From Chloroflexota bacterium (GTDB lineage Bacteria > Chloroflexota > Anaerolineae > Aggregatilineales > Phototrophicaceae), in assembly GCA_011523515.1 (NCBI GenBank), contig WTGO01000074.1:62001-126000 (forward strand): a DNA stretch of 64,000 bases, given 5' to 3'. Both the position numbers and the translations under genes were made by a program. This document shows, piece by piece, positions 8,985-62,561 of the stretch. Each line of letters begins with the position of its first letter. The first letter of the stretch is position 1. A model generated the notes under the pieces. The model did not search any database. It saw nothing but the letters and a program-made list of their open reading frames with translations, and was not told the origin of the DNA.

Positions 8985-10292
8985 TTGACGGACAGCCACA
9001 AGACCTGCCCAATCTGCGAAGCGCATAATCACCGAAATGCGGTGCTCTGCGCCACCTGCGGAACGACAATTGCCGACGTCGCGCCCAAAGAAGCGGGCGC
9101 CGACCGCGAAGCTCGCGCGGAAACGTACGATTACCGCTTTGGCGAGACTGATCTGGCGGAAGCCTCACTGACAGGCAAGGGCCGAATCTTGAGCGCAATG
9201 CTGATCGCTCTGCTGCTGACCGTGGCTGGAGTGGCAGCCGTCGCCGTCTATTTCGCCAACCGGTCGCCGAGAAGCCCGGCAATCATCGCTGTGGCGCCGC
9301 CCCCCTCTCCAACGCGTTTGATGGCGCCGTCTATCACGCCGGGCACGCCGACAGCAACATTCACCATCAGTCCCGTTCCGTCGCCAGTGCCGAGCGAGAC
9401 GCCTACGCCCGCGCCCTGCATCCGCCAGGTAGCCGAAGGCGACTCGCTCATCGCCATCATTCTGCGCTGCGGACACAGCAACCTGGCTATACTCCCAACC
9501 GTAATGGCGCTCAACGATATCGCTGACGAAACTCGCATTCAAATCGGTCAGGAAATCGCAGTGCCGCACCCGTCGCCAACCGTTGACCCGGCCGCCACTC
9601 CCGCGCCGGAAGACTCAGCATCCACCCGGACCAGGCAAGACGCGTTGACGCGGCTGGCCTTCGACCCCTTCGCGCCCACGCTAACGCCGACGCTGCTGCC
9701 GGGGCTGATGTGGTATGTTGTGCAAGCCGATGATGACATGATTTACGTAGCCAGCATACACGAGATCAGCATGAAGACACTTTCGGACTTGAATCCGGAG
9801 ATAGCATTCAGCTTGTGTGACTTCAGTGAAGTCTATGGCGGGCCGGAGTGTACCGTACAGCTGTTTGTGAATCAGAAGATTCGCGTACCGGCGCCCGCGC
9901 CAACCGTCACCACCGTTGCGACCTCGACCGGAAGCGAGACGCCGACGCCGTCGCCTACAGCCACCTTTAACGCCCCGCTAGCCCAAAGCCCGGCTGATGA
10001 AGCTTTCTTTTCCTCAACTGAGCGCGTTACCTTGCGCTGGGTTGGCACCGGCACACTCAGCCAAGGCGAAGTCTACCGTATCTCGCTGGCGAACATGGAC
10101 AGCGGCGCTCGTTACACCGCGGATACGCAAGAGCTTTTCTTGATCATACCGGCGGAGTGGCAGAGCCAGAATGAGGGCAGCCACAGGTATTCCTGGCAGG
10201 TCAGTGTCGTCGAGTCGGATTCCGATACGACTGCGTACACCACAGATCCACGTTCCTTTGTCTGGCAAGGCAGTGGACGGTCCGACTCATGA
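8985..10292 (+). CDS. Zinc-ribbon, transmembrane, LysM-type cell-envelope protein
   Basis: Translation probably starts at TTG 8985 (GAGG nine bases upstream). The N terminus is a four-cysteine zinc ribbon (CPICEAHNHRNAVLCATCG), then a charged stretch and one membrane helix (about residues 67-87). The outer part has a Thr/Pro/Ser linker and two divergent LysM-like units (RQVAEGDSLIAIILRCG...IGQEIAVP; WYVVQADDDMIYVASIHEIS...QKIRVPAP). It ends in an Ig-like C-terminal domain (LAQSPADEAFFSSTERVTLRWVG). The layout suggests a cytoplasmic zinc ribbon with an external glycan-binding part. The stop overlaps the next gene by four bases (ATGA), so the two are coupled. The ligand and the exact role are unknown. 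Confidence 0.75.
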   Translation: MTDSHKTCPICEAHNHRNAVLCATCGTTIADVAPKEAGADREARAETYDYRFGETDLAEASLTGKGRILSAMLIALLLTVAGVAAVAVYFANRSPRSPAIIAVAPPPSPTRLMAPSITPGTPTATFTISPVPSPVPSETPTPAPCIRQVAEGDSLIAIILRCGHSNLAILPTVMALNDIADETRIQIGQEIAVPHPSPTVDPAATPAPEDSASTRTRQDALTRLAFDPFAPTLTPTLLPGLMWYVVQADDDMIYVASIHEISMKTLSDLNPEIAFSLCDFSEVYGGPECTVQLFVNQKIRVPAPAPTVTTVATSTGSETPTPSPTATFNAPLAQSPADEAFFSSTERVTLRWVGTGTLSQGEVYRISLANMDSGARYTADTQELFLIIPAEWQSQNEGSHRYSWQVSVVESDSDTTAYTTDPRSFVWQGSGRSDS

Positions 10293-11401
10293 ATACGCGC
10301 CTGCTTATCGCGCTTTTAGGGCTGTCGCTGTGGTTGGCCGCAGCGTGCAACATCAGCCAGCCCAGAATCGGCCCGTCGCCGACTAACGAGTCTGAATCCA
10401 TCATTACCGTCGAGCCACTGCTTCAGCCAACGGCCGCATCTCTTTCCCCAACGGCCACCAGCGCCGCTTCCGCGGTATCAATTGTCACTGCCTCATTGGT
10501 GCATACGCCGTCTGCAACCGTCCCGGTGGAGTCGCCGACGGCCACACTGCCGTACTTTGAATACCTGGTCGGCGAGGGCGAAACCTTGTTTTATATCCTG
10601 CAGCTGCCGGAGCATGGTTACGGATACGAGCCGAATGTTGCGGCTACCGTCGTCGCCCTGAACGCCAATATCCCCAATGCCGACTCGGTACGCGGCGGAA
10701 TCACCATTCGTATTCCTCGGCCAACCCTGACGCCGACGCCGGTGGGCGCGGAAGCAACTCAAGAGCTGCTGGCCACCATCGGCGCCGATGACTCCACGGG
10801 TGTGGTTCTGGCGTCGGGAGCGACTATTGGCTGTCACATCGTGGAGGCGGGTGACGCCATCATTGGCGTTGCCGTCCAGAACGACACGACGCTGGAAATC
10901 CTGCACGGACTGAATCGCGACTTAAACTGGTTCGGCTGCAACTTTACCCTGCCCAGCGGCGGCGAAAACTGCGCGCCAAATTTGAGCATCGGTCAATGCG
11001 TCCGCGTACCGCTGCCGACACCCCTGCCCACCAAGTTTCCCACCCCGACGGGACGGGAAACCGCCACGCCAACGGCGACCAAGCTGGCCCCGCGCCTGGT
11101 CTATCCCATAGATGGCCAGGAGATTCCTCACGAGCCCTTGCTCATTCAGTGGGTAGGCGTCAGCGGGATGAACGAACTGGACGAGTATCTGGTGGAGTTA
11201 GTCGATCAAACGACCAACCAGCCGCTGCGCAACGTGACTCGCGCCAATTCATTCCAAGTGCCGGCGGCCTTCATGCCCAGCGATGGACAGACACATGACA
11301 TGCAGTGGCGGGTATCGGTGGCGCAGGTTGACGATCGCGGCATCTACCGTTATGTCGGCGAGGTAGGCAACTGGCGCAGTTTCCGCTGGTTGGGCCGCTG
11401 A
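10289..11401 (+). CDS. LysM-type lipoprotein, paralogue of the upstream gene
   Basis: The N terminus MNTRLLIALLGLSLWLAAACN has a lipobox (LAAAC), so the product is probably a lipoprotein facing outward. After a Thr/Ser-rich spacer come two divergent LysM-like units (YLVGEGETLFYILQ...GGITIRIPRP; CHIVEAGDAIIGVAVQND...SIGQCVRVPLP). The C-terminal domain resembles that of the upstream gene (LVYPIDGQEIPHEPLLIQWVG). The shared architecture and the ATGA overlap point to a local duplication, with the zinc ribbon and membrane helix replaced by a lipid anchor. The function is inferred to be cell-envelope glycan binding and is not proven. Confidence 0.75.
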   Translation: MNTRLLIALLGLSLWLAAACNISQPRIGPSPTNESESIITVEPLLQPTAASLSPTATSAASAVSIVTASLVHTPSATVPVESPTATLPYFEYLVGEGETLFYILQLPEHGYGYEPNVAATVVALNANIPNADSVRGGITIRIPRPTLTPTPVGAEATQELLATIGADDSTGVVLASGATIGCHIVEAGDAIIGVAVQNDTTLEILHGLNRDLNWFGCNFTLPSGGENCAPNLSIGQCVRVPLPTPLPTKFPTPTGRETATPTATKLAPRLVYPIDGQEIPHEPLLIQWVGVSGMNELDEYLVELVDQTTNQPLRNVTRANSFQVPAAFMPSDGQTHDMQWRVSVAQVDDRGIYRYVGEVGNWRSFRWLGR

Positions 11402-11491: not shown

Positions 11492-13849
11492 TCAGGCTGA
11501 CTCTGACTTTGGCGCCTTGCTAAAGGAGTCATAGACCGGCCGCCGCTCGCCCGCCGCATCCACCAGACTGAAAAAACAGGCTTCGTCATCGCCGGCCGCG
11601 CAGCCGTTGAGATTGTACAGGATCATGGCCGACACATTTTCCATCTTCTGCACGATATGAAATGCCTGCGAAACGTAGAGCGCCTGTTCAGCTTCGCTTG
11701 TATACGTCAGCCACTCGAAGCCGCTGGACGGCGCCGCGGTATTGTTGCCTTCGCTGGTGCCCCAACCCATTTGAGTGACAAATATAGGCATATCGCTGAG
11801 GCCGTTCACACTCAATACCTCAGTGTAAAATTCCAGCAGCTCAGTGAAATACTGCAGAAAAGATTCGTAGTGGGAATCAACGCCAGGCGGCTTTTTACAG
11901 CACTCAAGCGTCGGCGGAACAGCCGATGCGCTGAAGACCGCGCCGATGGCGTCGCTACTGGCCGCCGCGCCCTCGTCAAGCATACCCTGCAGGAATGTAC
12001 CGGTGTCGATTGAGTTATAGCCGTCGGAAAATCCTACCGGCGCCAAACCCGCACTGATCACCAAGGCCCGCGCATCATGCGCCCTAATCGTGTCATAGGC
12101 GACCTTTAGCAAGGGTGTGTAGTAGCTGGCGCCCAACTGAACTTCATCGGGGACGCCGTAATCGCCGTCGTCTGTCAGCTCCGGCTCGCGATGGTAAACG
12201 GGCACGGTCCAATATTTGAGCAGATTGGGCGACTTCCAGATTTCGTAGGCATCCACCAGACCCGCGTAACGCGTCGTCAGATTCGCCAAGAAGTTGGCAA
12301 AGACGGCGAGTTCCTCCGGCGGGCCGCCGTATTCGCGCATGACGCTGTTGAGCTGTTCGGTATACGAGGTTCGGCTCCAACCCGGCGCGTCGTATACATT
12401 CAGCACGATCTTCACGTCTATCAGCTCGAAAGCCGCCACCATGGCATCCAGCGCCTGATAACTATAAATCCCGGGTTCAGACTCCAAGTGGGCCCAAGAA
12501 ACATCGATCTTGACCCAATCAACGCCCAGTTCAGACACTTGCTCCGCCAACGCGCTGACGTTGTCCTGGTCTGTAAAGACTTTGAGTCCAAAGCCGAAAT
12601 CTGGACGGACGAAAGTCTCACTGGGCACGGGAACAAGAATTGTGTCGTCAACTTTAATCAAGCTGGGGTTGGCGATGCCATTTAGCGACTGCAGAAAATC
12701 TACGCTTGTTTCATAGGCTTCAGCAATTCCGGTCAAGGAGTCGCCGAGTCGCACTACGCGTACGCCGAGAACGGCGCCCTCCAGCTTCGGCACCAAAATC
12801 GCCTCGCCCACAGTTAGATCTCGCGGATCAGCCAGCCGATTGAGTACCTGCAAAACCGACAAACTGACGTTATAGCGCCTGGAGATGCTGTACAGCGAAT
12901 CGCCGGACTCAACAATTACCGCGTCAAAAATCGTCTCGTCTACTCTCGGTACAATGATGCTCCGCCCGACTGTCAAATCGCTGTCGCCACCGACTACATT
13001 AAGCGCGCGCAGCTGTACGACCGTCGTGTTGAAGCGCCGCGCAATGTTGAACAGACTGTCGCCCTGCGCAACGACATATACCTCGTAGATTCCCTCGTCA
13101 ATCCGCGGCGCCAGTATGACCTGGCCGACTTCCAGATCACGAGCGTTGGTTAACCCGTTCAAGGACATCAACTTCGTTTCCGTAGTAGCAAAGCGTCGCG
13201 ACAAACTGTAAAGAGAGTCAGCCGCGGTCACCTCGTATATCTCATACTTAGTTTCATCAGTATGCGGCACCAGGATACTCGATCCCTGAATCAATTCGCG
13301 TTCATCCGCGATTCCGTTGAGCGACTTTAAGATCGCAACGGTCGTAAGATAGCGCTGCGATATTATGTAGAGCGATTCGTCGGCTGCGACAACATGAATT
13401 AGCAGATCGGTTTCATTGATGCTGGGGACTATAAGCGTTTGCCCGGCTTCAATGTGGGTGCTATCGCCGATTTCGTTTAGACCCTGAATGATGCCGACGC
13501 TGGTGTTGAATCGTTTCGAGATTCCAAACAACGTATCGCCCGGCTTGACCTCGTAGACTTCGACAAATGAGCTGACGCCGGTCGGCAGCAGAATGCTCTG
13601 CCCGGCGAATATCTTTTCGCCCTCGGCGATCTCATTGATCTGCCGCAACTCTGCGATCGTGGTATTGAATGACTTGGCGATGCTAAACAGGGAATCGCCA
13701 CTCTGCACAATGTACGCGTCGTATGACGCCGGCAATACCGTATCCGGCGCAGATTCGCCGTTAGCGGGATCAGAGCCTTGGGCGGCAGCGCTTGACAAGA
13801 CAGTTATCAGAATCAGCGTTGCTGATAAGACATTGGTAATTCGTAACAT
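11492..13849 (-). CDS. Secreted protein with seven LysM repeats and an inactivated glycosidase-like domain
   Basis: A signal peptide (MLRITNVLSATLILITVLSSAAAQ) precedes seven consecutive LysM repeats of about 60 residues each, with start motifs such as YIVQSGDSLFSIAKSFNTT and repeat ends such as GQSILLPTG. The remaining 350 residues look like a GH39/GH5-type (clan GH-A) barrel: VDWVKIDVSWAHLESEPG, VLNVYDAPGW, AYEIWKSPNLLKYW, IFVTQMGWGT. At the two catalytic positions, the usual WNEPN reads WKSPN (K539, S540) and the usual TEFGW reads TQMGW (Q693), so hydrolysis is unlikely. It is probably a peptidoglycan- or glycan-binding protein. It is the last gene of a minus-strand run. Confidence 0.85.
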   Translation of the reverse strand: MLRITNVLSATLILITVLSSAAAQGSDPANGESAPDTVLPASYDAYIVQSGDSLFSIAKSFNTTIAELRQINEIAEGEKIFAGQSILLPTGVSSFVEVYEVKPGDTLFGISKRFNTSVGIIQGLNEIGDSTHIEAGQTLIVPSINETDLLIHVVAADESLYIISQRYLTTVAILKSLNGIADERELIQGSSILVPHTDETKYEIYEVTAADSLYSLSRRFATTETKLMSLNGLTNARDLEVGQVILAPRIDEGIYEVYVVAQGDSLFNIARRFNTTVVQLRALNVVGGDSDLTVGRSIIVPRVDETIFDAVIVESGDSLYSISRRYNVSLSVLQVLNRLADPRDLTVGEAILVPKLEGAVLGVRVVRLGDSLTGIAEAYETSVDFLQSLNGIANPSLIKVDDTILVPVPSETFVRPDFGFGLKVFTDQDNVSALAEQVSELGVDWVKIDVSWAHLESEPGIYSYQALDAMVAAFELIDVKIVLNVYDAPGWSRTSYTEQLNSVMREYGGPPEELAVFANFLANLTTRYAGLVDAYEIWKSPNLLKYWTVPVYHREPELTDDGDYGVPDEVQLGASYYTPLLKVAYDTIRAHDARALVISAGLAPVGFSDGYNSIDTGTFLQGMLDEGAAASSDAIGAVFSASAVPPTLECCKKPPGVDSHYESFLQYFTELLEFYTEVLSVNGLSDMPIFVTQMGWGTSEGNNTAAPSSGFEWLTYTSEAEQALYVSQAFHIVQKMENVSAMILYNLNGCAAGDDEACFFSLVDAAGERRPVYDSFSKAPKSESA

Positions 13850-13952: not shown

Positions 13953-15839
13953 TCACGGCGCCCAATCAAATGTGCAGAGCGTGTAAGAATCCGTCCCGTC
14001 TGCCAGCGGCAACCGTTCGCCGCTAACCGGCTCATACCAGCCGATGCGAATCTCGTACTCGCCCTCTATCAATGACGAAGCGGGCAAATAGTAGACCTCG
14101 CGGAAAGCGCCGGCGGGCTGCCAAGCGGTCGCGTCCAGCCTGCCGTCTTGTGGATATTGATCGTCTTGCGACCACAGTCTGCTGATCGATGAACCGGCGT
14201 CGATACCGTATACGTGAACAAAAGACTTCAAGGGCAGCGACGAACCTGCCAGCGGCTTCCAGTAAACACGCAGCAGCAGGTCCCCGTTGGGCAAGCGCTC
14301 AGCGCAAGATTCGTAGCTGAGCAAGGACACGGTATCATCAAAACGAGCCAATTCATCGGCGTTCGCGTCCGACACGGCCCAATGCTTATACTGCCGTACG
14401 GGCAGGCCAGCGGCATCGGCATGCAATACTTCCTGCATATTCGCCTGCATCCACTCCACAACGACGCCCGCGTTTTGCCAGCCAGCCTGCTCCCTGGCGA
14501 CGACATAAATGCTGTCATACTCCTGACTCAGTTGGCTTAGCGTAGCGGCGATGTCAGCGGCGGTCTGGTTGGGCTTAACCGGCAAAGCAATGTCCCGGGC
14601 AGCGCTTCGGTAGTAGTAGCCGAAGGCTGGATCCACCGCCAACTGAATGACCAGGTCGCTGTCCGCAACGCGCTGATTAATGAATTCACCCAGCGCGTCC
14701 CAGGCCGGCGCCTTGCGAAATGCCGGATTGTTGAAGTGGGCGTCCACTGTCATGAGCGCAAGCGCGAACCAGGGCAATGCGACGGCGAACGACAAAAGTC
14801 CCTGTCGTGTGTTGATGCAGCGGACGAGCAAGTCAGCGACTCTGCCGCAGCCTATAGCCAGCAAGAGGATAAATCCGGGTACAGCAGAAAGTACGTAACG
14901 CGGATGAAAGAGGTTGTAACGCTGCGAAACAATCCCAAGCAAGAGCAGCGGAACCAAAGCAGTCAGGACAGCAAAAGCGAAGACCCGGCTTGACATTTTG
15001 TAGACGAGAACTGCTGCAAAAAGAAGCGCCAGGCTCAATCCGAATCCGACAGATGAAATGTCGAAGGGAATCGTGCTGCCTAAGCCCAGAAAGGGAACAA
15101 ATCGTGTTACGTAGTCTGAAAGCGAAAAGGCTTGAACCAGCCCCGGATAATAGTCGATAAAGCCTTGTCGCACTTGAATCAGCACCAGGCCGGCCACCAG
15201 CAGGATCGCCATGCCCAGCTGTATCAAAAACAGTCGCCTGAGAAATCTCCAGTCTCGCCAGCGACGAATCAGCGCGAAAACAGCCAGCGCAAGCGTCGTG
15301 AAGCACTCCGTGTAAATGCTCAGAACCGCGAATCCGGCGACCACGGCATACAAATACCAGTCAGCGCGCCGCGGCCTGTCAATCAATCGCAGGCCGAGCC
15401 ACAAGCCGACAGCGCTGATGCCGCCCCAATAGGCGTAGTTGCGAAACTCTTGACTGTGCCAAATCTCGAAAGGATGAACTGCCCACATCAGGCCCGCTAT
15501 GAGCGCAAGCTCCAATCGGCCGCATAATCTCCAGGCGAGCGCGAACATTGCGGGGGCGCCTAGAACATTGCCCAGAACTGAGAGGTAGCGCAGCGCGAAG
15601 ACCGACTCGATGCCGCCGATGATGTGATTCCACAAACGCCCGACCGCATAGACCAGCGGCGTATGCGGCTCGCCGTGAGCAATCTCGCCCAATGAAACGC
15701 GCAGCGGAGTATCAGCCCAATACAAGACGCTAAATGCCTCATCGCCGCGCAAAGGCGCCGACTGCAGATCATGAACCCGCAGACCGAAAGCGACTAGTAC
15801 TATAGTGACGACAAGGCAGTAGCGGCGCAGCTGAGGCAT
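13953..15839 (-). CDS. GT39-like membrane glycosyltransferase
   Basis: The 628-residue protein starts with a membrane helix followed by APLRGDEAFSVLYW. The acidic pair in the first outer loop is typical of GT-C enzymes (PMT/ArnT-like) that use polyprenyl-phosphate sugars. About ten hydrophobic segments follow, for example FVLIRRWRDW-flanked helices and VLTALVPLLLLGIVSQRYN with HPRYVLSAVPGF. The last 150 residues form a soluble beta-rich outer domain. It probably adds a sugar to an envelope protein or lipid outside the membrane; donor and acceptor are unknown. Its start lies six bases after the stop of the NERD-like gene, so they are co-transcribed. Confidence 0.8.
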   Translation of the reverse strand: MPQLRRYCLVVTIVLVAFGLRVHDLQSAPLRGDEAFSVLYWADTPLRVSLGEIAHGEPHTPLVYAVGRLWNHIIGGIESVFALRYLSVLGNVLGAPAMFALAWRLCGRLELALIAGLMWAVHPFEIWHSQEFRNYAYWGGISAVGLWLGLRLIDRPRRADWYLYAVVAGFAVLSIYTECFTTLALAVFALIRRWRDWRFLRRLFLIQLGMAILLVAGLVLIQVRQGFIDYYPGLVQAFSLSDYVTRFVPFLGLGSTIPFDISSVGFGLSLALLFAAVLVYKMSSRVFAFAVLTALVPLLLLGIVSQRYNLFHPRYVLSAVPGFILLLAIGCGRVADLLVRCINTRQGLLSFAVALPWFALALMTVDAHFNNPAFRKAPAWDALGEFINQRVADSDLVIQLAVDPAFGYYYRSAARDIALPVKPNQTAADIAATLSQLSQEYDSIYVVAREQAGWQNAGVVVEWMQANMQEVLHADAAGLPVRQYKHWAVSDANADELARFDDTVSLLSYESCAERLPNGDLLLRVYWKPLAGSSLPLKSFVHVYGIDAGSSISRLWSQDDQYPQDGRLDATAWQPAGAFREVYYLPASSLIEGEYEIRIGWYEPVSGERLPLADGTDSYTLCTFDWAP

Positions 15840-15845
15840 GCTCGC

Positions 15846-16607
15846 TTAGATGGTCGCATCTTCAAATTCTTGAATCTGCTCGTCGCTTAGCGGCATTAGG
15901 TTCGCGTTTTTCGCATCACCCGCCGAATCGCTCAGCAGGCGCTTGGCATCTCGCATATACTCTTTGAGATTTGGGCTCCGCTTCGGATCAGCATACAGCA
16001 CCGGAATCTCGGGCTCAGTCTCAAACTCGACCGCCGCCGAGGGGTCGACGAACACAATCAAACTCTTCACTTCAACATCGTCCGCCACATCGTCAATCGC
16101 GCTCTGAATATACGAACGCGCAATCTCTGCATCACGAAACGGCTTGCCGATACCGTCAAATCGAATCACAGAAAACAGCTTGCTAAGCAGGTTTCGCTTG
16201 CTGCGAAACTTGCCATCGCGCAAGCTGAACTGCTGGTCGTGCCAGCGCGTTACTATGGCGAAAACACCTTGCGGGCAGATCAACACATGGCGAACGGGAA
16301 AGTGATAGTAGTTATAGAGTATGCTCTTGTTGCTCAAGCCCTTTAGACCGTCTTCTATCGCCTTTTCCGGGCGCGGAACGCGCGCCCAGAGATTGGTCAT
16401 TCTGACGGATACAATCGTCAAAATGAACGCTATTGGCAGTACGGCGGATTGCGCAAAAAGGGTCAGCGTATCCGGTGTTTCGTTGGTAAACAGCGATGCA
16501 TTGATAACGACGAAGCCAAGTATCAGCGCGCCGAAGGTGCTGAAAAACAGATAATTGGTGACTTTGCGATTTCGCCGGGCTAGTTTTTTGTTGGTAACAA
16601 CTCGCAT
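15846..16607 (-). CDS. NERD-like membrane protein with degenerate nuclease motif
   Basis: The N-terminal 75 residues hold two membrane helices (VTNYLFFSTFGALILGFVVIN; TLFAQSAVLPIAFILTIVSV). The soluble part contains NYYHFPVRHVLICPQGVFAIVTRW, which resembles the core strand pair of the nuclease-related (NERD) domain. The acidic residue and the E-x-K motif expected of that family are not visible: D is replaced by R before HVLI, and VTRW stands where an ExK-type end is expected. It may thus be structural rather than nucleolytic. GAGG precedes the ATG by seven bases. It sits between a CARDB protein and a GT39-like gene. The assignment rests on motif similarity only. Confidence 0.6.
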   Translation of the reverse strand: MRVVTNKKLARRNRKVTNYLFFSTFGALILGFVVINASLFTNETPDTLTLFAQSAVLPIAFILTIVSVRMTNLWARVPRPEKAIEDGLKGLSNKSILYNYYHFPVRHVLICPQGVFAIVTRWHDQQFSLRDGKFRSKRNLLSKLFSVIRFDGIGKPFRDAEIARSYIQSAIDDVADDVEVKSLIVFVDPSAAVEFETEPEIPVLYADPKRSPNLKEYMRDAKRLLSDSAGDAKNANLMPLSDEQIQEFEDATI

Positions 16608-16655: not shown

Positions 16656-18512
16656 TTAGTTGCCGCGGCAAGACACAATTCGCCTGGCATAGCGACGCAT
16701 GTCCTGTACTACCGCCTCCATGATCTTCCGCCTGGAAATCAAGAACCAGGATTCTATCAGGCGCCATCTTTCATCCGAGACCGCTCCGCGTAGATATACC
16801 ACGGCCGCGTCTGGGTTTAAGTCCGAGTCTTCCTCGACTTCGCCGCGGATCTCAGCAACGCTGTATCTTGCCGGGAAATGTATTGCTTCTTCCAGGTCAA
16901 TTATCGCGCGTCTGAGAGCGTCATCTTCGCCCTCATACCGGTGGTCAAACTGGTACTCACAACCGTCCAGACCGCCTGTAAGCGGCGGCGGTTCACACTT
17001 GTCATAACCCGGCGGCAAGCGCAGCACATATTCTGTGAACCAGACATTATCCGCCTCATTGATTTCATCGACTTCACCCTCATGGTCCACTGTCACCTGC
17101 AGGCGATGCAGTTCGTTTACGTAGGTATCCACGGCAAATGGGCCAAGTTGGTAGAATTGGCGGGCTCCGGGTCCCAATTGGCTGGTTCCAATATCGAATC
17201 GCTTCTCGGCAGTGACTATTGATGACGACACGTGAATGTCCTGGATGGTCAAGGTGATATGGCTGTCCGCCGTATCAAACCAGTCTTGCCCCGTGTTGAC
17301 GATTGGCGCTTGTATCGAGGCGCCAATCCCACAATACAGCGGGTGCGGATTTACTTGCGTCCAGCCTACAACCAGATTCACATTCTGTGGCGAGTCCGCC
17401 GTCTCGGGAATAAAGTACGCGAGGTAGTTCGCCAGTGTCACTTCCGCGCAGATAATGTCATTGAAACGCACCGAGGGCAGGATATGCCACTTCTCCGGCC
17501 CCGGATTTGGCGCCCCCTGAGCGCGAATCTCGCCGATTACAGCGCGCTCCAGGTCGTCTTCAGCCACACGCATACAGTGCGTCACTGGCACCGGCAGCGT
17601 ACTCACGGCGCCCTCTACGTGATGTTCCTCCGGAATCAGCGCTGACAGCTTGTAGAGCGCGCCGATTCGCAGCAATTCCAGGTTTTGGTTATGTGGCTGG
17701 GCTAGCGGCGAAGGGGCATTGAACTCGCTCTCAACCGCACAGTCCAAAGTAAATGATGAACCGGCCGAGATTTCAATATCTTCCGGATCGTAGAGCAGCG
17801 TCCCGCAATTGGCGTAGGGTCGCATAATGGATGTGTCTTGCACGACATCAGTAAAGACTTGACGGCCCAGGGGCACGCCAACTGAAATCTCTTCGTATTC
17901 GGCTACGCGCAATTCCGCTGTTATACGGGCAATGCCGTCCATGGCGATGTTGACCGGTTCGCTGCCGTCACCCGGGCCCAGCACCTCGGCGCTCGACAAT
18001 AACGCGAGATCAAATGTACCTCCGGCTGTCCAGGCCCAATACGTCAGCACTGACGGCGCCGACGTATCAGCGTAAAACCTGAATCCCACCGGCAAGTTAA
18101 AGCCGACCCATACCACGGGCGCCGTTATAATCGCCGGGTCACTGAGCTCCATGCGATTGACACCGGGCAGATCGAGCGCTACGGACTGCCGATAGACGAG
18201 CGTCGCATCCACCGGCGAACCGCCGTTGGCATCCTGATAAACGAGCAGTTCAATGGCGCTGCCGGGAACCGGCGTTTCCACCGAAATGCTCACCGCGTCC
18301 AACGCTACCGGCAGCGCCACGCCAAGCGGCGTCAAATCAAAACCGTTGATAACAACCGAGGGCTCGCCTTCAATGTAAAACACCGCGTTGCCGTCGCCGA
18401 TATTGTTGCTAAGCAGCGTATCGCCCGCTGCCACCGGAAAGGCCATCAAGAGCAAAGCGACAGTCAACACGCCGATTCTTAACAATAGCTTTGTCGCATT
18501 TGTGCGCATCAT
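16656..18512 (-). CDS. Secreted CARDB-type protein of unknown function
   Basis: The 618-residue product has a signal peptide ending near AFPVAAGDT and a beta-rich N-terminal half (PGSAIELLVYQDANGG, PVVWVGFNLPVGFRF). A region around residues 390-510 (GASIQAPIVNTGQDWFDTAD...VDHEGEVDEINEADNVWF) has the CARDB pattern of adhesion-type beta domains. The last 100 residues are helical and charged. No catalytic motif is visible. It is the first gene of the minus-strand envelope run and has GAGG nine bases before the ATG. A surface or secreted structural role is likely; anything more specific would be guesswork. Confidence 0.7.
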   Translation of the reverse strand: MMRTNATKLLLRIGVLTVALLLMAFPVAAGDTLLSNNIGDGNAVFYIEGEPSVVINGFDLTPLGVALPVALDAVSISVETPVPGSAIELLVYQDANGGSPVDATLVYRQSVALDLPGVNRMELSDPAIITAPVVWVGFNLPVGFRFYADTSAPSVLTYWAWTAGGTFDLALLSSAEVLGPGDGSEPVNIAMDGIARITAELRVAEYEEISVGVPLGRQVFTDVVQDTSIMRPYANCGTLLYDPEDIEISAGSSFTLDCAVESEFNAPSPLAQPHNQNLELLRIGALYKLSALIPEEHHVEGAVSTLPVPVTHCMRVAEDDLERAVIGEIRAQGAPNPGPEKWHILPSVRFNDIICAEVTLANYLAYFIPETADSPQNVNLVVGWTQVNPHPLYCGIGASIQAPIVNTGQDWFDTADSHITLTIQDIHVSSSIVTAEKRFDIGTSQLGPGARQFYQLGPFAVDTYVNELHRLQVTVDHEGEVDEINEADNVWFTEYVLRLPPGYDKCEPPPLTGGLDGCEYQFDHRYEGEDDALRRAIIDLEEAIHFPARYSVAEIRGEVEEDSDLNPDAAVVYLRGAVSDERWRLIESWFLISRRKIMEAVVQDMRRYARRIVSCRGN

Positions 18513-60830: not shown

Positions 60831-62561
60831 ATGCATAGATTACGTCGCGTCCTAATTGTACTCGTACTTGTCACGCTGTTTGCGGCCGGGGCAAGCGCGC
60901 AACAAGGCGGCATTTTGATTGGAACAAACTTCGGCGGGGACCCCACCACGATTAATCCCCTTCTCACCAACAACACGGTTGATCTTGCCCTGGTGGAATT
61001 CATGTTCCCCAGCCTCTATAACATCAACCCGGAGACACGGGCGCCGACGAAAGGCGGACGGAACGACCAGGACAATGGCCTCGCCCTGGATTGGACGATT
61101 TCCGATGACGGCTTGACCTACACCTTCACGCTGCGTGACGATGTCACCTGGAACGATGGCACGCCCGTTACCGCCCATGACTACGCCTACACCTTCGAGG
61201 CGCTGGCCAGTGGCGAGACCTCATCTCCCCGCGGCAGCGTCTTGCAGAGCGTTGAAAGCGTTGAAGCCGTTGACGATACCACCCTCATCGTCAACTTGAA
61301 GCTGGCTTCATGCCGCGCGCTCGACGAACTGGACGACTTCGGCATCTTGCCCAAGCACCATTTCGAGTCGCTGACCGGCGGCGATTTCGCGGAGATCGAC
61401 AATCTTGAATACAACAAGCATCCGGATGTCACCTCGGGCGTATTCAACTTCGGCGCCCTCATTGCCGATGAACAGACCAGCATGGTCCGCAACGACAACC
61501 ACTGGATGTCAGTCTCGCCGGAAGGCTATATCATTCGCAACGTGCCTGACCAGTTGGTCGGCATTGAGCAATTCCTTGCTGGCGAGGTCAATTCGGTCGG
61601 TACCGCCGGCTCCGCATCGGTTCCCGCCGTGCGAATGCAAGAATTCCGCGAGCGTGCGGAAGCGGGGGAATTCCAAGTGTATGAATATGTCGATGATGGC
61701 TTGACCTTTGTCGGATTCAACCTCGCCGATCGCACCAACCCGACTGACGGCCTGGACGAAGACGGCAATCCTGTCGACCAGGGCAAGCACACGCTCTTCG
61801 GCGACATTCGCGTCCGCCAGGCGCTTGCGCAGGCGGTGAACTATGACGATATTATCCAAGGTGCCGCCGAGGGCGAGGGCGTCCAGGTTAACAGCTTCGG
61901 CACACCTGCGCTTTGGGGATATGACTCCAGTATCGAACCTTGGGAATACAATCCCGAAGCCGCCGTTGCGCTGCTCGCCGAGGCCGGATTCGTCGATCAC
62001 GATGACGACGCCAGCACGCCCCTGGTCGCCACCGAAGACGCGCTCTATGCCGAGCCCGGCAGCGAGTTCGCCTTTGAGCTGCTGACGAACTCCGGCAACC
62101 TCGTGCGTGAGGCCGCCGGCACTGTCATTCAGGACCAGCTTGGCCAGATCGGCATCGCCGTCGACTTCCAGACGATTGAGTTCGGCCCATTGGTGACCTT
62201 CCTGCTCGGCCAAGACTTTGACGCCATCATGATTGGCTTCACCAATCTTGCTCAGGATACCGATGCGCGCAACGTCTTCACGCCCGTTGGCGACACCGTA
62301 GGCGGCGGCTTCAATTTCGTCTCCTACAGCAATGACCGCGTCACCGAACTCTACGACGAAGCGCTGTCACTGCCTGGTTGCGACTTCCACGAACGTCAGG
62401 CCCTATATCACGAAATCAGTCGCATTCTGCACGATGACGTGCCGTGGTGGTGGCTCTTCGCGCCCTTCTCGATGTACGCCGAAGCCAATTCAGTCCAGAA
62501 TTGGCTTCCTTACGCCGAGACGCGTTACGCCAATATGGCCGAAATTGCCATAAGCCCGTAA
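60831..62561 (+). CDS. Peptide ABC transporter substrate-binding protein (family 5)
   Basis: Start is MHRLRRVLIVLVLVTLFAAGASAQ (ATG 60831) with AGGAG six bases upstream; the ORF track starts too early. The 576-residue protein has the DppA/OppA pattern (DPTTINPLLTNNTVDLALVEFMFPSLYNI, TFTLRDDVTWNDGTPVTAHDYAYTFEAL, RVRQALAQAVNYDDIIQG). It binds oligopeptides or similar solutes outside the membrane. A strong intrinsic terminator follows before the permease gene, which should make the binding protein more abundant than the permeases. Confidence 0.92.
   Translation: MHRLRRVLIVLVLVTLFAAGASAQQGGILIGTNFGGDPTTINPLLTNNTVDLALVEFMFPSLYNINPETRAPTKGGRNDQDNGLALDWTISDDGLTYTFTLRDDVTWNDGTPVTAHDYAYTFEALASGETSSPRGSVLQSVESVEAVDDTTLIVNLKLASCRALDELDDFGILPKHHFESLTGGDFAEIDNLEYNKHPDVTSGVFNFGALIADEQTSMVRNDNHWMSVSPEGYIIRNVPDQLVGIEQFLAGEVNSVGTAGSASVPAVRMQEFRERAEAGEFQVYEYVDDGLTFVGFNLADRTNPTDGLDEDGNPVDQGKHTLFGDIRVRQALAQAVNYDDIIQGAAEGEGVQVNSFGTPALWGYDSSIEPWEYNPEAAVALLAEAGFVDHDDDASTPLVATEDALYAEPGSEFAFELLTNSGNLVREAAGTVIQDQLGQIGIAVDFQTIEFGPLVTFLLGQDFDAIMIGFTNLAQDTDARNVFTPVGDTVGGGFNFVSYSNDRVTELYDEALSLPGCDFHERQALYHEISRILHDDVPWWWLFAPFSMYAEANSVQNWLPYAETRYANMAEIAISP

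Follow-up and report, generated by a model that had tools for sequence, protein, structure and literature searches.

We describe a gene of a Chloroflexota bacterium that probably encodes a conserved pseudoenzyme, i.e., a protein that sequence and structural model predict to be noncatalytic, anchored on peptidoglycan, and used for glycan binding or as a scaffold. The gene lies in a window of 64,000 nucleotides (positions 62,001 to 126,000 of contig WTGO01000074.1, assembly GCA_011523515.1), where it starts with an ATG at 13849 and is read toward 11492. A first-pass annotation of the DNA had proposed an open reading frame at 11492-13849 with seven LysM modules and a glycosidase-like domain deprived of both catalytic glutamates. 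The frame is present as claimed; it is on the minus strand and has 785 aa, in which Pfam recognises seven stretches of LysM (E 7e-87). The features of the gene are the following:

11492 to 13849, minus strand: complete gene, 785 aa, with signal peptide, seven LysM and a GH39-like pseudo-glycosidase domain
13778 to 13849, minus strand: probable signal peptide, aa 1-24, ...SSAAA-Q (by eye from the translation)
13583 to 13717, minus strand: LysM 1, aa 45-89 (Pfam)
13424 to 13555, minus strand: LysM 2, aa 99-142 (Pfam)
13262 to 13396, minus strand: LysM 3, aa 152-196 (Pfam)
13106 to 13237, minus strand: LysM 4, aa 205-248 (Pfam)
12947 to 13078, minus strand: LysM 5, aa 258-301 (Pfam)
12788 to 12919, minus strand: LysM 6, aa 311-354 (Pfam)
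12629 to 12760, minus strand: LysM 7, aa 364-407 (Pfam)
11495 to 12616, minus strand: GH-A (beta/alpha)8 barrel, GH39-like, aa 412-785 (AlphaFold2, Foldseek, profile match)
12224 to 12238, minus strand: WKSPN, aa 538-542, acid/base site after beta4 (sequence, profile, model)
12140 to 12196, minus strand: ordered insertion on the catalytic face, about aa 552-570, with a GDYG-P core (alignments)
11912 to 11935, minus strand: FSASAVPP, aa 639-646, after beta6 (alignments)
11762 to 11776, minus strand: TQMGW, aa 692-696, nucleophile site at the end of beta7 (sequence, profile, model)

No glycosidase model of Pfam matches the last 374 residues above the cut-off. The sub-cut-off matches are to GH42 (19.5 bits) and Cellulase (15.8), the Pfam GH39 model gave no match to the protein, and an NCBIfam search returned only sub-threshold or generic LysM names. 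A single-sequence phmmer search of the PDB identified the GH39 enzyme PslG (E 5e-11), with WKSPN opposite WNEPN. The same relationship was recovered with a profile of 34 sequences, which matched PslG (E 9e-31) and 5jvk, also GH39 (7e-14), with both motifs aligned; the second PslG motif aligned weakly and apart from the rest (i-E 0.09), and 5jvk aligned in one piece over the whole barrel. The positions of the PslG chain concerned, 139 and 250, become E165 and E276 once an offset of 26 is added; these are the catalytic residues reported for this enzyme (PMC6813494). The AlphaFold2 model of the barrel, built from an 80-sequence alignment, has a mean pLDDT of 94.8 and a pTM of 0.93, and its eight strands are distinct (beta4 at 534-537, beta7 at 689-694). 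With this model, Foldseek placed PslG first (E 6.5e-20, TM about 0.68) and 5jvk fourth, behind three PslG entries. Hence, both the fold, a (beta/alpha)8 barrel of clan GH-A, and the sequence, by single-sequence and profile searches, place the domain nearest to GH39.

The two residues that define a GH39 enzyme are replaced. The motifs start at aa 538 and 692, and the residue numbers in the first-pass annotation are right. The glutamate expected after beta4 (E165 in PslG) is S540 (codon 12230-12232), in a motif where K539-S540 stands for the expected N-E, and the one expected at the end of beta7 (E276) is Q693 (codon 11771-11773). In the model S540 is the third residue past beta4 and Q693 is within the final two residues of beta7. 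The structure prediction and the GH39 alignment thus put S540 and Q693 at the two clan GH-A catalytic positions, as had been suspected. Because they align with E165 and E276 of PslG, sequence and model establish that both catalytic glutamates are lost; misalignment of the motifs is ruled out by two results, the alignment of the profile with PslG and 5jvk and the strand positions of the model. Since the two defining residues were checked and are absent, we did not file the protein as a GH39 enzyme.

The changes are shared by the genus. A survey of homologues, the check proposed for the initial claim, found the same pair in 34 of 34 genus genomes, where the motifs read WK[S/A]PN (KS in 27, KA in 7) and TQxGW. 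The codons of the fixed sites vary synonymously (AAA/AAG, CAG/CAA, TCG/TCA), and this variation, together with the presence of the changes in every genome, excludes chance or sequencing error; the low omega (0.125) rules out sequencing error as well. The barrel is under purifying selection, with an omega of 0.125 in the genus (about 0.09-0.27 in close pairs) and 0.195 in the preceding 110 residues. The domain has thus been selectively retained in all 34 genomes after the loss. That the lost catalytic residues mark a gene decaying toward a pseudogene is extremely improbable, given 34 intact copies out of 34, the omega of the barrel, and the synonymous changes around the fixed K, S/A, and Q codons; at the genus level the pseudogene is refuted.

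We then compared the gene with its relatives. Among the barrel paralogues of the same genome, 9 out of 10 keep WNExN and the Glu of the nucleophile site, which rules out a general decay of this class of proteins in the genome. The exception (L074, contig C76, a frame of about 1060 aa) has WDEPN and SNFGW, with Asn as nucleophile. The same genome has three tandem GH39-like frames with intact catalytic motifs (L002/L068, contig C36). Our survey of the family outside the genus covered 45 loci in 44 genomes. The acid/base is Glu in 44 loci and Asp in one. The nucleophile site could be read in 44 loci: it is Lys in 22 and Arg in 13 (35 of the 44 together), Glu in 3, Ala in 3, and Gln, Ser, and Gly in one each. 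Five family loci (L058, L174, L180, L187, L181) keep the acid/base Glu and have Ala, Ser, or Gly as nucleophile, a change that is used for making laboratory glycosynthases. Both glutamates are mostly present in order- and class-level relatives, and also in a few family-level orthologues. Two orthologues that have both and are presumed active, L136 and L144, occur in the same gene neighbourhood; one-glutamate intermediates exist too. The protein has therefore lost the essential residues while descending from a presumed-active family.

The order of these events was studied with a tree inferred after removal of the catalytic columns. This tree is unrooted, and its outgroup does not fall on one side of a branch. 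On this tree the acid/base changed once, on the genus stem (0.9 changes per site), and the nucleophile changed at least 7 times. The direction is that of a loss, because the paralogues and the GH39 enzymes have both glutamates. From their sequences, the relatives appear to display this loss stepwise, from two glutamates to one and then none. Part of it may reflect an older function, the nucleophile being already mostly absent across the family. The number of LysM modules is 0-2 in family relatives, two in 13 of the 34 genus members, and 5-7 in the other 21, so that the growth from 2 to 5-7 is confined to a subclade of the genus. As the genus members with two LysM already lack both glutamates, the catalytic loss preceded the expansion. 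We found no tandem repeat at the DNA level, hence the modules are not recent copies, and recent tandem duplication is ruled out.

Could the barrel still be an enzyme, with relocated acids or a non-hydrolytic chemistry in place of the lost pair? The catalytic face is strongly conserved, and D563, E712, and D764, genus-invariant acids that are either gained or newly fixed, are in loops of this face. However, a comparison of the sequences of the genus with those of the relatives identified no acidic residue gained at any strand end, and thus no sign of the alternative active-site glutamates that would have restored an enzymatic role to the domain in the first-pass annotation. Moreover, the genus has lost two positions that help to hold the sugar in GH-A enzymes, the His-Pro motif that follows beta6 and the Asn that precedes the acid/base: they are abolished by K539, S540, F639, and S640, and FSASAVPP stands where relatives have H-P-x-G-[WF]-[AG]-N-P-P. 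The Trp after beta8, kept by most relatives with both glutamates, is Tyr or His. We therefore regard an enzymatic function as unlikely; judging from sequences and model, the barrel is very likely inactive.

Other observations suggest that the former active site has been rebuilt. A loop of about 19 residues after beta4 (552-570) is fixed in the genus and mostly absent elsewhere in the alignments. Within the genus, K539 and Q693 belong to the slowest 13% and 7% of sites, respectively; elsewhere in the family the rate of the nucleophile site is average (52nd percentile). The C-terminal strand ends, i.e., the catalytic face, are slower than the opposite face both within the genus (p 8e-4) and in the rest of the family (p 4e-4); since that family keeps the acid/base and shares the slowness, the latter is not by itself proof of binding. 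Because K539, Q693, and the strand ends of this face are slow in the genus, we infer that this face, instead of being released once the glutamates were lost, became constrained to a new sequence. This bears on whether the barrel is a passive spacer, or a scaffold between proteins with no glycan ligand, in a protein whose sole function is LysM binding. The expansion from 2 to 5-7 LysM in the subclade after the catalytic loss fits such a role, but the face that held the active site ranks with the most constrained parts and carries a specific fixed insertion, which makes such a role doubtful.

The LysM/GH gene follows three genes on the same strand:

16656 to 18512, minus strand: secreted CARDB-like protein, first gene of the run
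15846 to 16607, minus strand: small membrane protein, NERD-like in relatives, conserved neighbour
13953 to 15839, minus strand: GT-C type glycosyltransferase (PMT_2), immediately upstream, conserved

In the window, the gaps between the CARDB-like, NERD-like, PMT_2, and LysM/GH genes are 48, 6, and 103 bases. The order of the four is present in nearly all loci of the genus, and the gene lies within a conserved, operon-like run. Many family loci have the same order with Band 7 and DUF2207 insertions, including L136, which has both glutamates. The gap between the glycosyltransferase and the LysM/GH gene holds Band 7 (SPFH), DUF2207, and zinc-ribbon genes in family loci such as L121, L125, and L136, and among the genus loci examined L106 still has genes there. 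Scans for promoters and terminators did no better than chance; they gave one promoter-like site, which lies upstream of the CARDB gene. On the other side, tail to tail with the LysM/GH gene and conserved beside it across the genus, two surface-type proteins are encoded at 8985-11401 on the plus strand, one with a zinc ribbon and LysM, the other with a lipobox-like start.

The genome carries transpeptidases and Mur ligases with matches over the cut-off, the peptidoglycan-making genes to be looked for alongside a LysM wall-binding protein, and peptidoglycan production has been published for sponge Anaerolineae (PMC6306507). The wall-binding scaffold proposed in the first-pass annotation agrees with these genes and with the LysM array; its alternative, a glycan sensor, gained no direct support.

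Those records of the genus that bear names are Chloroflexota/Anaerolineae MAGs, and their isolate prefixes include RHO, COS, and CAR. Because these three recall the hosts of a published set of sponge MAGs, Rhopaloeides, Coscinoderma, and Carteriospongia (PMC8163846), the uncultured genus is probably a sponge symbiont, as far as isolate names tell. CBM50/LysM is reported to be the most abundant CBM in sponge Chloroflexi, where it is restricted to Anaerolineae and Caldilineae (PMC6306507). A secreted multi-LysM protein might act as a shield that hides the peptidoglycan of the symbiont from host receptors, like the fungal LysM effectors. The top PDB match of the LysM part is the fungal LysM protein Extracellular protein 6, the record names resemble those of sponge MAGs, and LysM number increased within the genus. 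Yet resemblance between LysM modules is generic, just two of them are present in 13 of the 34 genus members, and the sponge origin is read from isolate names, so we consider this role very unlikely.

We favour a conserved noncatalytic protein that, from its sequence, would work like a pseudoglycosidase. It would be exported and held on peptidoglycan by its seven LysM, and the rebuilt face of the former active site (WKSPN, FSASAVPP, and the inserted loop) would bind a cell-surface glycan or a partner protein but not cut it. As the PMT_2 glycosyltransferase adjoins the gene, its glycan product is the most likely ligand, which the protein may tether or organise on the wall. Both this ligand and the binding of a glycan as such are guesses from neighbourhood and ancestry, and a protein is an equally possible partner of the face. 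More speculatively, and with rather low odds in our view, a retaining glycosidase may have become a surface lectin or scaffold through replacement of the nucleophile by Lys or Arg, then loss of the acid/base with rebuilding of the cleft, then LysM expansion, and now organise a symbiont glycan or hide peptidoglycan from the host.

The closest known protein in sequence and fold is PslG, an endoglycosidase of Pseudomonas aeruginosa (PDB 5bx9, 4zn2, 9g17). The two share the (beta/alpha)8 barrel, with both catalytic motifs aligned, and PslG too is located in a polysaccharide gene cluster, but it has E165 and E276, cuts Psl, and lacks LysM, whereas the Chloroflexota protein has Ser and Gln. Similarly, 5jvk, from Bacteroides cellulosilyticus, aligns over the full barrel in the profile search but retains WNEPN and TEIGW and has no LysM. 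The LysM/CBM50 wall proteins LytE, SafA, and DipM resemble it by a LysM array expected to anchor on peptidoglycan, but they carry peptidase or assembly domains instead of a GH39-like barrel. Known pseudoglycosidases include Klotho (GH1) and, in GH18, chitinase-like lectins such as YKL-40 and the xylanase inhibitor XIP-I. These are also glycosidase barrels that lost one or more catalytic acids and now serve as binding or receptor modules, but they belong to other GH families and are mostly eukaryotic, whereas this one is bacterial, GH39-like, and fused to LysM. To our knowledge, animals and plants have well-known pseudoglycosidases but few have been described in bacteria, and a partial literature search found no description of a LysM/GH39 pseudoenzyme. 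Hence, the kind is known, while a bacterial lineage with traceable steps looks undescribed.

These results have three implications. First, the annotation of CBM50 and GH39-like domains in these genomes, often taken as a sign of polysaccharide degradation, includes probable non-cutters. Second, orthologues of one gene, in one conserved neighbourhood, go from two catalytic glutamates to one and then none, and therefore the order of events from enzyme to binder can be tested with living proteins. Finally, if the genus is indeed sponge-symbiotic, the protein is a candidate surface factor of an abundant uncultured symbiont.
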